Source of the DNA: Cenarchaeum symbiosum A
Lineage (GTDB): Archaea; Thermoproteota; Nitrososphaeria; Nitrososphaerales; Nitrosopumilaceae
Direction: 5' to 3'
Assembly (NCBI GenBank): GCA_000200715.1
Contig: DP000238.1
Location: 1,018,593-1,082,592 of the forward strand
DNA length: 64,000 nucleotides
Position 1 is the stretch's first letter. Every line of letters begins with the position of its first letter. The position numbers were made by a program, and so were the translations under genes. A model generated the notes under the pieces. That model was not told the origin of the DNA, ran no database searches, and worked only from the letters and a program-made list of their open reading frames with translations. This document shows positions 16,540 through 21,491 of the stretch, in pieces.

Positions 16540-17077
16540 CGACGAGCCAAACCCCATAAAGGACATACTGTACGATGTAATAGATACGGCGGGCGAGGAC
16601 TGGATAAAGCAGAGGGTTCTCGACGGGGACACAGCCGGGGCCATAAACAGGCTGGTATCCGATTCGATGGGAAGGGTCGCTGATTTGGAGGGCGACCCCG
16701 AGGTCAATGGATCAAAGCTGCTCAACTCGATGCTCCACTATATGCTGACCCTTGTCATGATCCCCACCCAGAGAAAGTTCGACGAGCAAGGCACGGAGGT
16801 GGACATTGCCATACCGGATATGAAGACGGTCCGGTCCAGCCCCCGCGATGCCCTTCTCATATGCATACCCGCGTTGCATGAGAACAGGGAGGCCCACGCC
16901 AAGACGGTCGCCGGCATGCACCCGGAAAAAGAGAACGTCTGGTATGTGGGGGAGGGCGGTTCCAGCGGCAGGACCTATTCCGCGTCTGACGGGTCGGTAA
17001 ACAGGATAATAGACGATATAAACGCCTTCTTCAAGGAGAGAAAGGCGCCGCGGTTCAGGTTTGTAGGCTCAAACTGA
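16532..17077 (+). CDS. Conserved-looking hypothetical protein coupled to HMG-CoA synthase
   Basis: 181 aa from ATG 16532, which overlaps the HMG-CoA synthase stop (ATGAGTAG), so the two are translationally coupled. The first third is helical and acidic. The middle has 'VDIAIPDMKTV' followed by 'ALLICIP', a D-x(n)-K pattern on adjacent strands that could be a nuclease-like or Rossmann-like core; this is only a visual impression. No signal or membrane span. Its 3' end overlaps bioD tail to tail by 23 bp. Confidence 0.7.
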   Translation: MSSDEPNPIKDILYDVIDTAGEDWIKQRVLDGDTAGAINRLVSDSMGRVADLEGDPEVNGSKLLNSMLHYMLTLVMIPTQRKFDEQGTEVDIAIPDMKTVRSSPRDALLICIPALHENREAHAKTVAGMHPEKENVWYVGEGGSSGRTYSASDGSVNRIIDDINAFFKERKAPRFRFVGSN

Positions 17078-17750
17078 GCAGTCCGGGCACATCGATTGCG
17101 GTAGATACTGCGAGTGCAGCCTCCTTGGGTCCTGCGGATTCTAGCGCGGGAACAGCACCTAGCACCTCCATGCCGGCAAGCTCTGATACATCCCGGCAGA
17201 GCATATCCGCCTTGTACCCCCCGGGATCCACACAGTTGATGACAGCCCCTATAATGGGCACGCCCGCATCCTTGCAGGCCCGGGCGGTCAGTATAGAATG
17301 GTTGACGGCGCCAATCCTGTTTCCGACAACTACAAGGGCGCCAAGCCCCATGTCCAGTATGAGATCCGCCACGGAATAGTCGCTCAATATCGGGGTCATT
17401 ATGCCGCCTATCCCCTCGGCGATTATCACCCCGTGTGTCTTTTGCAGTCTTTCAAAGCACTCTAGTACTGTCCCCGTGTCGGGGGCCGTGCCAAGCTCCC
17501 GGGCTGCAGCATACGGGGATGCGGGCAGCGGATAAAACTGCGGGTTTACAAGAGATGACGGGTCGCTGCAGCGGGCGGCCTCTATGAGCAGCTCCACGTC
17601 GTCCCTGGAGCCTGCTGCAAACGGCTTCATGACTCCCACGTCCGCGCCGAGATCAGAGGCTGTTCTGGCAAGGCCGGCCGACACAAGCGTCTTGCCCACG
17701 CCGGTATCGGTCCCTGTTACAAAGACTGACCTCACGGGGATGCTGCCCAT
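17055..17750 (-). CDS. bioD: Dethiobiotin synthetase
   Basis: 231 aa from ATG 17750. It closes the ureido ring of dethiobiotin from DAPA, CO2 and ATP. Walker A is 'VTGTDTGVGKT' (about 11-21); 'KPFAAG' gives the catalytic Lys region; 'EGIGGIMTPI' near residue 105 matches the conserved EGAGG loop. A minus-strand GTTTAATC box lies about 20-25 nt before the ATG. It is opposite in strand to bioA, bioB and bioF, separated by a 25-codon ORF. Confidence 0.93.
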   Translation of the reverse strand: MGSIPVRSVFVTGTDTGVGKTLVSAGLARTASDLGADVGVMKPFAAGSRDDVELLIEAARCSDPSSLVNPQFYPLPASPYAAARELGTAPDTGTVLECFERLQKTHGVIIAEGIGGIMTPILSDYSVADLILDMGLGALVVVGNRIGAVNHSILTARACKDAGVPIIGAVINCVDPGGYKADMLCRDVSELAGMEVLGAVPALESAGPKEAALAVSTAIDVPGLLSLSLQT

Positions 17751-18044: not shown

Positions 18045-19364
18045 GTGGAGCAGGCGGGGGAGCAGGCGTTGTCGAGTGTAGTATGGCACCCCAACACGCA
18101 GATGGGCGAGTGGGACGAGTTTGGGGAGATAGTGCAGGGGCGCGGCATGCACCTGATAGACAAAAAGGGCAGAAAGCTGCTCGACGGGGTGGCATCCATG
18201 TGGTGCAACGTCTGGGGTCATTCCAGGCCCGAGCTGGTAAGGGCGATAACCAGGCAGGCTGCAAGGCTCCAGCACTCGCCGCTCTTCAACCTTACAAACG
18301 GGCCCGCAGAAGAGCTTGCCCGGATGCTGATAGAAACCATACCCGGCATGCACAGAGTCTTTTATTCGGACAACGGCTCGACTGCAATGGAGGTAGCCTT
18401 CAAGATGGCCATCCAGTACTGGTCCAATGAGGGCGACAGCGGCAGGAACAGGATTGCCGCGCTAAGCAACGGGTACCACGGGGATACGTTTGGGGCAATG
18501 TCGGTCGGGTATATGCCGGGCTTTTTCGGGGCGTTCAAGGGGCAGCTATTCCCCGCGGTCCGGTTCGACGCGCCGGGAGGCAGGGAGGCGCCCGGGGGCC
18601 CCACCGACAAAGAGATAGAAGAAGAGTGCCTTGGGAACATGGAGGAGAGGTTCGCAGACGGCACGATAGCCGCGCTGGCCATGGAGAGCGGGGCGCAGGT
18701 GGCTGGCGGCGTCAGGATATACCCCCGCGGCTTTCAGCGTAGAGTATCCAGGATATGCAAAAGGCACGGCGTGCTGCTCATACTAGACGAGGTTGCGACG
18801 GGCCTTGGGCGCCTCGGGTCGATGGCAGAATACGAGGCGCAGGGAGGGCGCCCAGACATAGCGGCCTACGGCAAGATGCTCACCGGCGGGTACCTTACCA
18901 TGTCGGCCACCCTTGCCACAAAAAAGGTATATGATTCGTTTCTTGGGGGATACGACGAGAACAGGCACCTGTTCCACGGCCATACGTATACAGGCAACCC
19001 GCTGGCGGCAGCTGCAGCAATAGAGAACCTGCGGATGTACAAGAGGAGAAACCTGCTGGACAAAGTGGCAAAGGGAGCGCGCGTGCTGGGGGGATATACC
19101 GAAGAGATATCCGGGATGGGGCGCGTATCTGATGTCCGCCATGCGGGGATGCTCATGGGGATAGAGCTGTCCCGCGGGGCGCCAAAGGGAGGGCCGTCGA
19201 CCAACAAGATAATCTTTGAGGCGGGCAGGCGCAACGGCGTGTACTTGCGCACGCTAGGTGACGTAGTCATGCTGGTGCCGCCCCTCGCCATGGGCCCCGC
19301 AGACCTGCGGAGGCTCGTCGAGGGGACGGTGCGGGCGGTCCGCGAGGCCCCGCTGGATGGTTAA
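18045..19364 (+). CDS. bioA: Adenosylmethionine-8-amino-7-oxononanoate aminotransferase
   Basis: 439 aa, GTG start. A fold-type I PLP aminotransferase making DAPA from KAPA. Family signatures: 'WHPNTQMGEW', 'LLDGVASMWCNVWGH' (about 45-60), 'DNGSTAMEVAFKMA' and the PLP lysine in 'AAYGKMLTGGYLTMSATL' (about residue 276). Length is normal. Its stop codon lies inside the first half-site of the BirA-type operator that precedes bioB, so bioA is upstream of that control point. Confidence 0.95.
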   Translation: MEQAGEQALSSVVWHPNTQMGEWDEFGEIVQGRGMHLIDKKGRKLLDGVASMWCNVWGHSRPELVRAITRQAARLQHSPLFNLTNGPAEELARMLIETIPGMHRVFYSDNGSTAMEVAFKMAIQYWSNEGDSGRNRIAALSNGYHGDTFGAMSVGYMPGFFGAFKGQLFPAVRFDAPGGREAPGGPTDKEIEEECLGNMEERFADGTIAALAMESGAQVAGGVRIYPRGFQRRVSRICKRHGVLLILDEVATGLGRLGSMAEYEAQGGRPDIAAYGKMLTGGYLTMSATLATKKVYDSFLGGYDENRHLFHGHTYTGNPLAAAAAIENLRMYKRRNLLDKVAKGARVLGGYTEEISGMGRVSDVRHAGMLMGIELSRGAPKGGPSTNKIIFEAGRRNGVYLRTLGDVVMLVPPLAMGPADLRRLVEGTVRAVREAPLDG

Positions 19365-19388
19365 CCATACCATATACGCGGGTTAACC
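19359..19388. promoter_or_regulatory. BirA-type biotin operator before bioB
   Basis: GGTTAACC at 19359-19366 and again at 19381-19388 with exactly 14 nt between. Read as TTAACC-N14-GGTTAA it matches the core of the BirA-binding signal described for bacterial and some archaeal biotin genes. It sits right before the bioB TATA box (TTAATTA, about 19394-19400, 27 nt before the ATG), so a bound repressor would block the TATA/BRE. It overlaps the bioA stop. Confidence 0.75.
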
Positions 19389-19423
19389 TTATCTTAATTA
19401 GGAGCAATGCCAGCCCGGACCGC

Positions 19424-20380
19424 ATGGGCATAGCAGAGTGCAGGGACAAGGTGCTCGGCGGCGGGGAGCTTACAAAAGACGAGGCCCGGGGCCTGATGGA
19501 GGCAGATGTTACAGAGCTGGCGGCTGCGGCAGACGAGATCACGCGCCGCTTCAACGGGGACGGCGTGGATGTAGAGCAGCTGAATAACATAAAGAGGGAC
19601 GGGTGCAGCGAGGACTGTACTTTTTGCGGCCAGTCGGCGTTCTATGATGCGGACAAGGAGCCGCACCCGCTGCCGGAACCAGAAGAGGTGGTCCGCGCCG
19701 CGCTCAAGGCGAAAAAAGAGGAGGCCTCGTCATACTGTTTGGTGGCCGCATGGAGGGAGCCCACCCCCGAGGGGTTTGAAAAGGTCTGTACCATAATACA
19801 AGAGATCAATACACACGTGGGGATATCAGTAGAGTGCAGCTTGGGGTTTCTCACAAGGGAGAGGGCGGCGCGCCTCAAGGGGCTGGGCGTCAAAAGATAC
19901 AACCACAATCTTGAGACGGCGCGCTCCAAATTTCCCGAGATATGCAGCACCCACACGTACGAAGACAGGCTGGACACGCTGGAGATAGCCCGGGAGGCGG
20001 GGCTCGAGCTGTGCACCGGGGGGATAATCGGCATGGGGGAGAGCAGGGGGCAGAGAATAGAGCTGGCCATGGAGCTTGCCCGGATACGCCCAGAGGAGGC
20101 GACGGTAAACATCCTTGTGCCCGTGCAGGGGACCCCGATGGAGCTGCAAGCCCCGCTGCCGCCGGGCGAGGCGGAGAGGTTTTTTGCGCTTGTGCGCTTT
20201 TTGCTGCCGCGCTCGGTAGTCAAGATATCAGGCGGCAGGGAAAAGGCCCTTGATGATGACGGCAGGGCGATACTCCGGGGCGGGGCCAACGGGATAATCA
20301 CGTCGGGCTACCTGACCATGGGCGGCAACGATTCATCTGCCGACATGGAGATGATAAGGGAAGCCGGGCTTGAGGCATAG
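19424..20380 (+). CDS. bioB: Biotin synthase
   Basis: 318 aa. A radical SAM enzyme that inserts sulfur into dethiobiotin. The SAM cluster motif 'GCSEDCTFCGQS' (about 65-76) gives CxxxCxxC. The second-cluster residues appear as 'SYCLVAAWREP', 'SVECSLGFLT' and the late Arg. 'YNHNLETAR' is highly typical of BioB. It has its own promoter below the BirA-type operator and overlaps the bioF start by 11 bp, so bioB and bioF are cotranscribed. Confidence 0.96.
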   Translation: MGIAECRDKVLGGGELTKDEARGLMEADVTELAAAADEITRRFNGDGVDVEQLNNIKRDGCSEDCTFCGQSAFYDADKEPHPLPEPEEVVRAALKAKKEEASSYCLVAAWREPTPEGFEKVCTIIQEINTHVGISVECSLGFLTRERAARLKGLGVKRYNHNLETARSKFPEICSTHTYEDRLDTLEIAREAGLELCTGGIIGMGESRGQRIELAMELARIRPEEATVNILVPVQGTPMELQAPLPPGEAERFFALVRFLLPRSVVKISGGREKALDDDGRAILRGGANGIITSGYLTMGGNDSSADMEMIREAGLEA

Positions 20381-21491
20381 CCCTGCGGATGCAAAGCTTG
20401 CCCGGATACGCCGCGAGGGGCTGTACAGGAGGCTCACACCGGGGATTATACGCGGTGCATACATTGTCGTGCGGAACAGGAAACTGCTCAACTTATGCTC
20501 AAATGACTATCTTGGGCTTGCTTCGCGCGGCCCCGTTCCGGGGCAGCCGCAGGCAAGCTCCCGGCTTGTATCGGGGAGCGACCCCGCGCATACAACGCTA
20601 GAAAAGGCCCTTGCAAGGCACGCAGGTACAGGTGCTGCCCTGCTGTACCCTACCGGATACATGGCCAATCTGGGGGCAATACAGGCATTAGTGCGAAAAG
20701 GCGACCGCATATTTTCCGACGAGCTTAATCATGCGAGCATCATAGACGCGTGCGCGCTCTCCGGGGGGAGGGTCTCCGTATACGCCCATAACGACATGGA
20801 TGAGCTGCGGCGCATGCTAAAGAGATGCAGGGGCAGGGCCCACGTGATAACCGAGGGGGTATTCAGCATGGACGGCGATATGGCAAAGCTGATAGAGATA
20901 ACGGAGCTCGCACGGGGCAGAGCATCGGTCATACTTGATGATGCACACGGGGACTTTGTGTGCGGGAGGAGCGGCCGGGGCACAGCGGAGCTTCTCGGGG
21001 TACGCGGGAAAGTAGACGTGTATACTAGCAGCCTCAGCAAGGGCCTCGGGTCCTTTGGCGGGTATATGGCTGCCGGCAGGGATGATGTCAAGCTGTGCAT
21101 TAACGGCTCTAGGGCGTTTATCTATACGTCCGCGCTGCCTGCGCATATAGCCCGCGATGCCCTGCGGAGGATATCTGCTGATGCGGAGCCCAGGAGGCGC
21201 AAACTCGCAGAGAACGCCCGGAGGCTCTCAGAAGGGCTGCTAGATGCAGGTTTTAGGGCTGGCTCTGACTCCCACATAATACCTGTCCACGTAGGCGGCG
21301 AGCGCGCCGCTGTAGAGCTAGGTAGGCAGCTGGCCCGCGAGGGCGTCTTTGCGCAGCCGGTCAGGTATCCAAGCGTCCCGAGGGGCAAGGCCCGGATCCG
21401 CATATCGGCGACGGCTCGGCTGACCAAGGGTCATGTCGAGGGTGCGCTTGAAGCGTTTGGGCGCGCAGGGCGGCGCCTCGGCCTGGTATAG
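20370..21491 (+). CDS. bioF: 8-amino-7-oxononanoate synthase
   Basis: 373 aa from TTG 20370, inside the bioB end. A PLP alpha-oxoamine synthase that joins pimeloyl-CoA/ACP and alanine. Motifs: 'NLCSNDYLGLAS' (about 41-52), 'DELNHASIIDA', 'LDDAHGDFVCG' and the PLP lysine in 'SSLSKGLGSFGGY' (about residue 225). With bioD, bioA and bioB it completes the four late steps. No pimelate-forming gene (bioC, bioH, bioW, bioI) is in the window. Confidence 0.94.
   Translation: MRHSPADAKLARIRREGLYRRLTPGIIRGAYIVVRNRKLLNLCSNDYLGLASRGPVPGQPQASSRLVSGSDPAHTTLEKALARHAGTGAALLYPTGYMANLGAIQALVRKGDRIFSDELNHASIIDACALSGGRVSVYAHNDMDELRRMLKRCRGRAHVITEGVFSMDGDMAKLIEITELARGRASVILDDAHGDFVCGRSGRGTAELLGVRGKVDVYTSSLSKGLGSFGGYMAAGRDDVKLCINGSRAFIYTSALPAHIARDALRRISADAEPRRRKLAENARRLSEGLLDAGFRAGSDSHIIPVHVGGERAAVELGRQLAREGVFAQPVRYPSVPRGKARIRISATARLTKGHVEGALEAFGRAGRRLGLV

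Follow-up and report, generated by a model that had tools for sequence, protein, structure and literature searches.

The window (the whole stretch of 64,000 nucleotides of Cenarchaeum symbiosum A that was analysed) carries the biotin genes in the order bioD on the minus strand, bioA, bioB and a bioF-like gene, and a dyad located between bioA and bioB is a predicted operator of the BirA type. The features are as follows.

17055–17750, minus strand: bioD, divergent (TIGR00347, 131.8 bits, cut-off 83), without a dyad of its own
18045–19364, plus strand: bioA (TIGR00508, 421.5 bits, cut-off 405), with its stop codon in the left arm of the dyad and without a dyad of its own
19359–19388, no strand assigned: predicted BirA-type operator GGTTAACC-N14-GGTTAACC, core GTTAACC-N14-GGTTAAC at 19360–19387
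19393–19400, plus strand: TATA-like box CTTAATTA in the promoter of bioB, four bases 3' of the right arm
19424–20380, plus strand: bioB, biotin synthase (TIGR00433, 357 bits, cut-off 225), the first gene behind the operator
20370–21491, plus strand: bioF-like gene (best NCBIfam match TIGR00858, bioF, 323 bits, below the cut-off of 426)

The bioF-like gene overlaps the end of bioB, its start codon is uncertain, and it is probably co-transcribed with bioB. bioB starts with the ATG at 19424, which is 36 bases downstream of the right arm and about 27 nt downstream of the centre of the TATA-like box; the latter distance indicates that the bioB mRNA is probably leaderless. The word cttaatta is also found 3' of the dyad in many relatives.

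The letters confirm the dyad TTAACC-N14-GGTTAA with extended arms that the original prediction placed at 19359–19388: both arms read GGTTAACC, the left at 19359–19366 and the right at 19381–19388, with the N14 spacer at 19367–19380. The claimed overlap with the bioA stop is found as well, with the TAA at 19362–19364 inside the left arm, as is the location directly upstream of the bioB TATA box, where CTTAATTA starts at 19393. That bioA and bioD have no such site also holds: with the pattern GTNAACC-N13–16-GGTTNAC no further plus-strand match with up to two mismatches is found near either gene, and with zero or one mismatch there is no second place on the plus strand of the window besides the bioB dyad. 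The shorter pattern TTAACC-N12–18-GGTTAA has one match in the window, with 0.02 expected from shuffles, and one in the 2.045 Mb genome (a single contig of 2,045,086 bases), where the reversed pattern has none; for the 16 specified bases of the dyad 0.0004 matches per genome are expected under a mononucleotide model. Each arm is itself palindromic, and in C. symbiosum alone the dyad would also fit a direct repeat whose period is 22 bp. This reading was dropped since relatives carry GTAAACC..GGTTTAC, which are inverted and not direct repeats, and the window dyad is thus taken as an inverted repeat.

For the comparison with relatives, f and g codes denote families and genera, G genomes and L loci. 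Of 121 genomes of the family 106 have BioB, as do 34 of 80 genomes chosen from the order and class, giving 140 usable upstream regions out of 141 places, with the fragment G318 excluded. A dyad was called as GTNAACC-N13–16-GGTTNAC with at most two mismatches, within 140 bp upstream plus 20 bp. The scan before bioB that the original prediction had proposed finds the site conserved, with the dyad in 94 of the 140 upstreams (64 with no mismatch) against 1 of 140 when the upstreams are reversed; among those without it one has three mismatches and 45 have four or more. The half-sites are conserved and keep a fixed place before bioB, while the spacer between them varies. In a separate scan of 80 named loci, the first 53 of which are thaumarchaeal by title or list rank and which partly overlap the set of 140, the dyad is present in 47 of the 52 thaumarchaeal loci with upstream DNA. 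Several bacterial bioB upstreams, searched over 400 bp and including Phascolarctobacterium and Romboutsia, carry the same dyad, indicating that the archaeal dyad resembles an ordinary bacterial signal. Genome G290 has two bioB loci (L120 and L122), each with a dyad, and is possibly a mixed bin, and in the fragmented genome G143 the bioB site is present with no BirA match.

The loose pattern TTAACC-N12–18-GGTTAA was rejected as a genome-wide marker: among 400 genomes searched in the class 208 have it, often at a lower frequency than the reversed control, and the pattern is thus non-specific in the AT-rich relatives. The analysis was therefore moved to the bioB upstreams, where the argument rests on position and on the longer half-sites. 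Other dyads in order-level genomes (L233, L240 and L243–L246) were set aside: those of L240 and L243 lie inside small related ORFs, and at the remaining ones no biotin gene was recognised.

A biotin-ligase search finds a single biotin ligase gene in the C. symbiosum genome (C1:1344733–1345701, minus strand, 323 residues), about 307 kb from the bioB dyad. The original prediction had asked for an N-terminal HTH in this protein, and the sole ligase does have one, an HTH_11 domain at residues 13–64 with 42.6 bits (cut-off 25), in addition to BPL_LplA_LipB and BPL_C domains. The NCBIfam models for bifunctional BirA match the protein below their own cut-offs. In an AlphaFold2 model made with a 60-row alignment (mean pLDDT 88.6) a winged HTH precedes the ligase, with a helix at residues 38–50 followed by a wing at 54–67, and the best Foldseek matches of the model are the BirA proteins of S. 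aureus, E. coli and K. pneumoniae.

The N-termini of 80 BirA proteins were compared, 78 of them from genomes with a usable bioB upstream (all except G385 and G318). HTH_11 matches every one of the 60 proteins in the first set with an E-value of 1e-4 or better, and six outgroup proteins are above the cut-off. The domain is deleted in three BirA proteins of genus g8 and missing in four of family f3; those of G102, G123, G146, G166 and G232 give no HTH match and retain an eroded stretch, and two are below the cut-off, namely G132, the second genome from the genus to which the window belongs, with 19.9 bits, and G120 with 13.7 bits. Deletion or erosion of the HTH with a retained ligase domain is thus seen in several lineages, including the window's own genus (L317–L325, L329). 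Within the genomes whose BirA sequence was read, a subset of the 140, the bioB dyad is present in 0 of 14 with a deficient HTH and in 51 of 64 with an HTH (Fisher p 2e-8, a value that ignores descent); the upstream sequence of G166 is shorter than 100 bp. A further 15 genomes of f3, HTH-less by match coverage only, have no bioB dyad either. The state of the HTH changes at least 8 times on the BioB tree, and when independent pairs were drawn at random 200 times no set had the site going opposite to the HTH, while a sign test restricted to well-supported branches leaves 4 pairs and is not significant (p 0.125, with little power). The 13 HTH-bearing genomes without the dyad are 10 of the Nitrosarchaeum type, G118, G177 and G297. 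Of these, G177 (L340, L159) and G297 (L350, L151) have an intact BirA HTH and no bioB dyad. That site and HTH are missing together supports BirA in particular as the protein that would recognise the dyad, and the dyads at bacterial bioB genes, like the match of helix and half-site described next, point the same way.

For genomes that have both the HTH and a site, residue X of the recognition-helix motif SR-X-A was compared with base N of the right half GTT[N]AC. Valine goes with A (SRVA with GGTTAAC) in 25 of 26 genomes and alanine with T (SRAA with GGTTTAC) in 18 of 19; in the remaining helix types threonine is found with A twice and with T once, serine with T and C, and glutamate with C. The exceptions are G175, G040 and G079. 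The left half follows the helix type less closely, the genomes of the V type having GTTAAC 17 times and GTAAAC 9 times. The recognition helix of E. coli BirA is SRAA and the right half of the bacterial consensus, as given in a passage of PMC545781, is GGTTTACAA, so this protein would fit the same rule. On the tree the change consists mainly of one switch and a few smaller changes, and a test on independent pairs is without power; the agreement is strong evidence for BirA, though not of a statistical kind. Taken with the HTH, the conservation of the site and its joint absence with the HTH, it supports the original prediction that a BirA with a DNA-binding domain controls bioB-bioF. As far as sequence comparison can tell, the dyad is very probably the operator of BirA, the cell's only biotin–protein ligase. 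We infer BirA binding and a response to biotin at the dyad by analogy.

The position of the dyad relative to the promoter differs between families. In the window's family it is located just 5' of the TATA box and ends 30–47 nt before the ATG depending on the genus (31–47 nt as genus medians), whereas in genomes of f2, f3 and f5 with an HTH it spans the TATA-like sequence (in G137, for instance, GTTGTAAACCAAACTTTTAATTACGAGTTTACAAC), with the right half ending about 12–15 nt before the bioB ATG. In B. subtilis it is the biotinyl-AMP form of BirA that binds DNA, with biotinyl-AMP as the signal (a passage of PMC4016012). The title of a paper cited there gives forty base pairs as the length of the site that a BirA dimer covers. 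From what is known of the BirA family, BirA would keep its biotinyl-AMP when the apo-carboxylase runs out, the loaded protein would dimerise with one winged HTH on each half-site, and the bound dimer would repress bioB-bioF. A dimer covering forty base pairs would reach the BRE, which immediately precedes the TATA box, and might thus exclude TFB and TBP; in the outgroup families the same operator would act across the TATA box itself. Repression is favoured because the outgroup dyads straddle the TATA box, a blocking position.

A second candidate target was found with the stricter pattern GTWAACC-N13–16-GGTTWAC, which has 66 matches in 80 genomes of the family (39 for the reversed pattern): 43 are located at bioB and 20 at the promoter of the gene for ribosomal protein L3 (PF00297), which is followed by those for L4, L23 and S19 (rpl3-rpl4-rpl23-rps19), and three (G031, G042 and one of G190) were left unplaced. 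The rpl3 dyad is found 75–78 bp 5' of the start codon and always with N14. A start was recognised in 98 of 100 L3 loci (all except G141 and G163). All 35 promoters read from the Nitrosopumilus/Nitrosarchaeum group, genera g3, g4, g7, g12 and g14 (L247:3821–3848, L248–L281), carry the dyad GTTAACC-N14-GGTTAAC, against 0 of 63 promoters of other genera and 1 of 98 in the reversed control. Twenty of the 35 had been selected for a known match, and the other 15 belong to genomes picked without regard to it; all 15 have the dyad, with one mismatch each. The L3 promoter of C. symbiosum has no dyad. In the Nitrosarchaeum-type genus g4 (13 of 13 genomes analysed) and in G118 of g14 the bioB dyad is gone, the helix SRVAVWK is intact in 10 BirA proteins of g4 and in that of G118, and the rpl3 dyad is retained in the g4 and g14 promoters read. 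For the Nitrosarchaeum type no target other than the rpl3 site was found that could account for the retention of the BirA HTH. Whether BirA in the Nitrosopumilus/Nitrosarchaeum group also controls rpl3-rpl4-rpl23-rps19, and would tie ribosome synthesis to biotinyl-AMP and thereby to carboxylase demand, we regard as an evenly balanced question.

In the other genera the word at the L3 promoter is TATAATGGGGTTAAC with a V-type BirA and TATAATGGGGTTTAC with an A-type BirA, the element being GTTAAC in the former and GTTTAC in the latter, an agreement that is confounded by descent. The pattern is suggestive, but it could also reflect a core-promoter word. In genus g2 (L298–L302, L367–L370) all 9 rpl3 promoters have a weaker dyad, with one or two mismatches, placed across the TATA box, and in g5, g22 and g21 (L303–L305, L371–L375) the word after the rpl3 TATA box is GGTTTAC and not GGTTAAC, as in their own bioB operators.

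Another regulator, for example of the Lrp or TetR type, might bind the dyad at bioB and, in some genera, at the ribosomal genes with no role for BirA, and the occurrence of the same dyad at rpl3, a gene without a role in biotin synthesis, is what such a protein could explain. It is nevertheless very improbable, because none of the 14 genomes in which the BirA HTH is deleted or eroded has the site, the variable half-site base tracks the recognition helix of BirA, and the dyad has the spacing and core of the BirA signal published in the passage of PMC545781. A chance palindrome, or a core-promoter word used without any regulator, can practically be dismissed: words of the GTTAAC type are frequent in the AT-rich relatives, but one genome match stands against the 0.0004 expected, and before bioB the half-sites are conserved in place although their spacers vary, with 1 of 140 in the reversed control. 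Archaeal activators are often located just upstream of the BRE and TATA box, and since the site in the window's family is upstream of the TATA box BirA could bind the dyad and yet activate bioB. This is very improbable given the blocking position across the TATA box in f2, f3 and f5, and since it is the biotinyl-AMP form of BirA that binds DNA (B. subtilis, passage of PMC4016012) biotin would then raise its own synthesis.

With the dyad read as a repressing BirA operator, ammonia-oxidizing archaea gain a concrete predicted feedback switch for biotin that can be tested in cultured species, in which bioB expression would be turned down when biotin is sufficient. These archaea fix carbon via a biotin-dependent acetyl/propionyl-CoA carboxylase. 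The relatives constitute a natural experiment, with HTH and operator jointly absent on several branches, a switch in helix and half-site, and an operator whose place with respect to the TATA box has shifted. Should the rpl3 sites prove to be BirA sites, ribosome production would be set in part by a vitamin ligase, and such control of ribosomal genes by BirA would be new.

A biotin regulon with a BirA signal has reportedly been proposed in both Eubacteria and Archaea, to judge from the title of Rodionov et al. 2002. A literature search of titles, abstract openings and some passages found no BirA operator in ammonia-oxidizing archaea and no BirA acting on ribosomal genes. The kind of site, an archaeal BirA operator, is therefore already known, and the predicted bioB site would be a new archaeal example. 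BioR and BioL regulate biotin genes in bacteria, according to abstracts, and so does BioQ; all three are proteins different from BirA, and their operators differ from the BirA dyad. Complementation by the bioA, bioB and bioD genes of Nitrososphaera gargensis is reported in passages of PMC6138646, in which BirA is named only as the bacterial regulator. The bacterial BirA consensus, in the passage of PMC545781, is TTGTAAACC-N14/15-GGTTTACAA, and the original prediction was right that spacing and half-sites match this known signal, with the same core and N14/15. The system of the window thus shares with the bacterial BirA regulon the half-site core, the spacer, the place before biotin genes and one bifunctional ligase with an N-terminal HTH. 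Outgroup sites such as that of G137, GTTGTAAACC-N15-GAGTTTACAAC, are close to the full consensus, whereas the window dyad matches it in 13 of 18 letters, with the variable base exchanged in both halves (GTTAACC/GGTTAAC) and no outer TT/AA, and unlike in bacteria it is placed at an archaeal promoter with a TATA box and a probably leaderless transcript.
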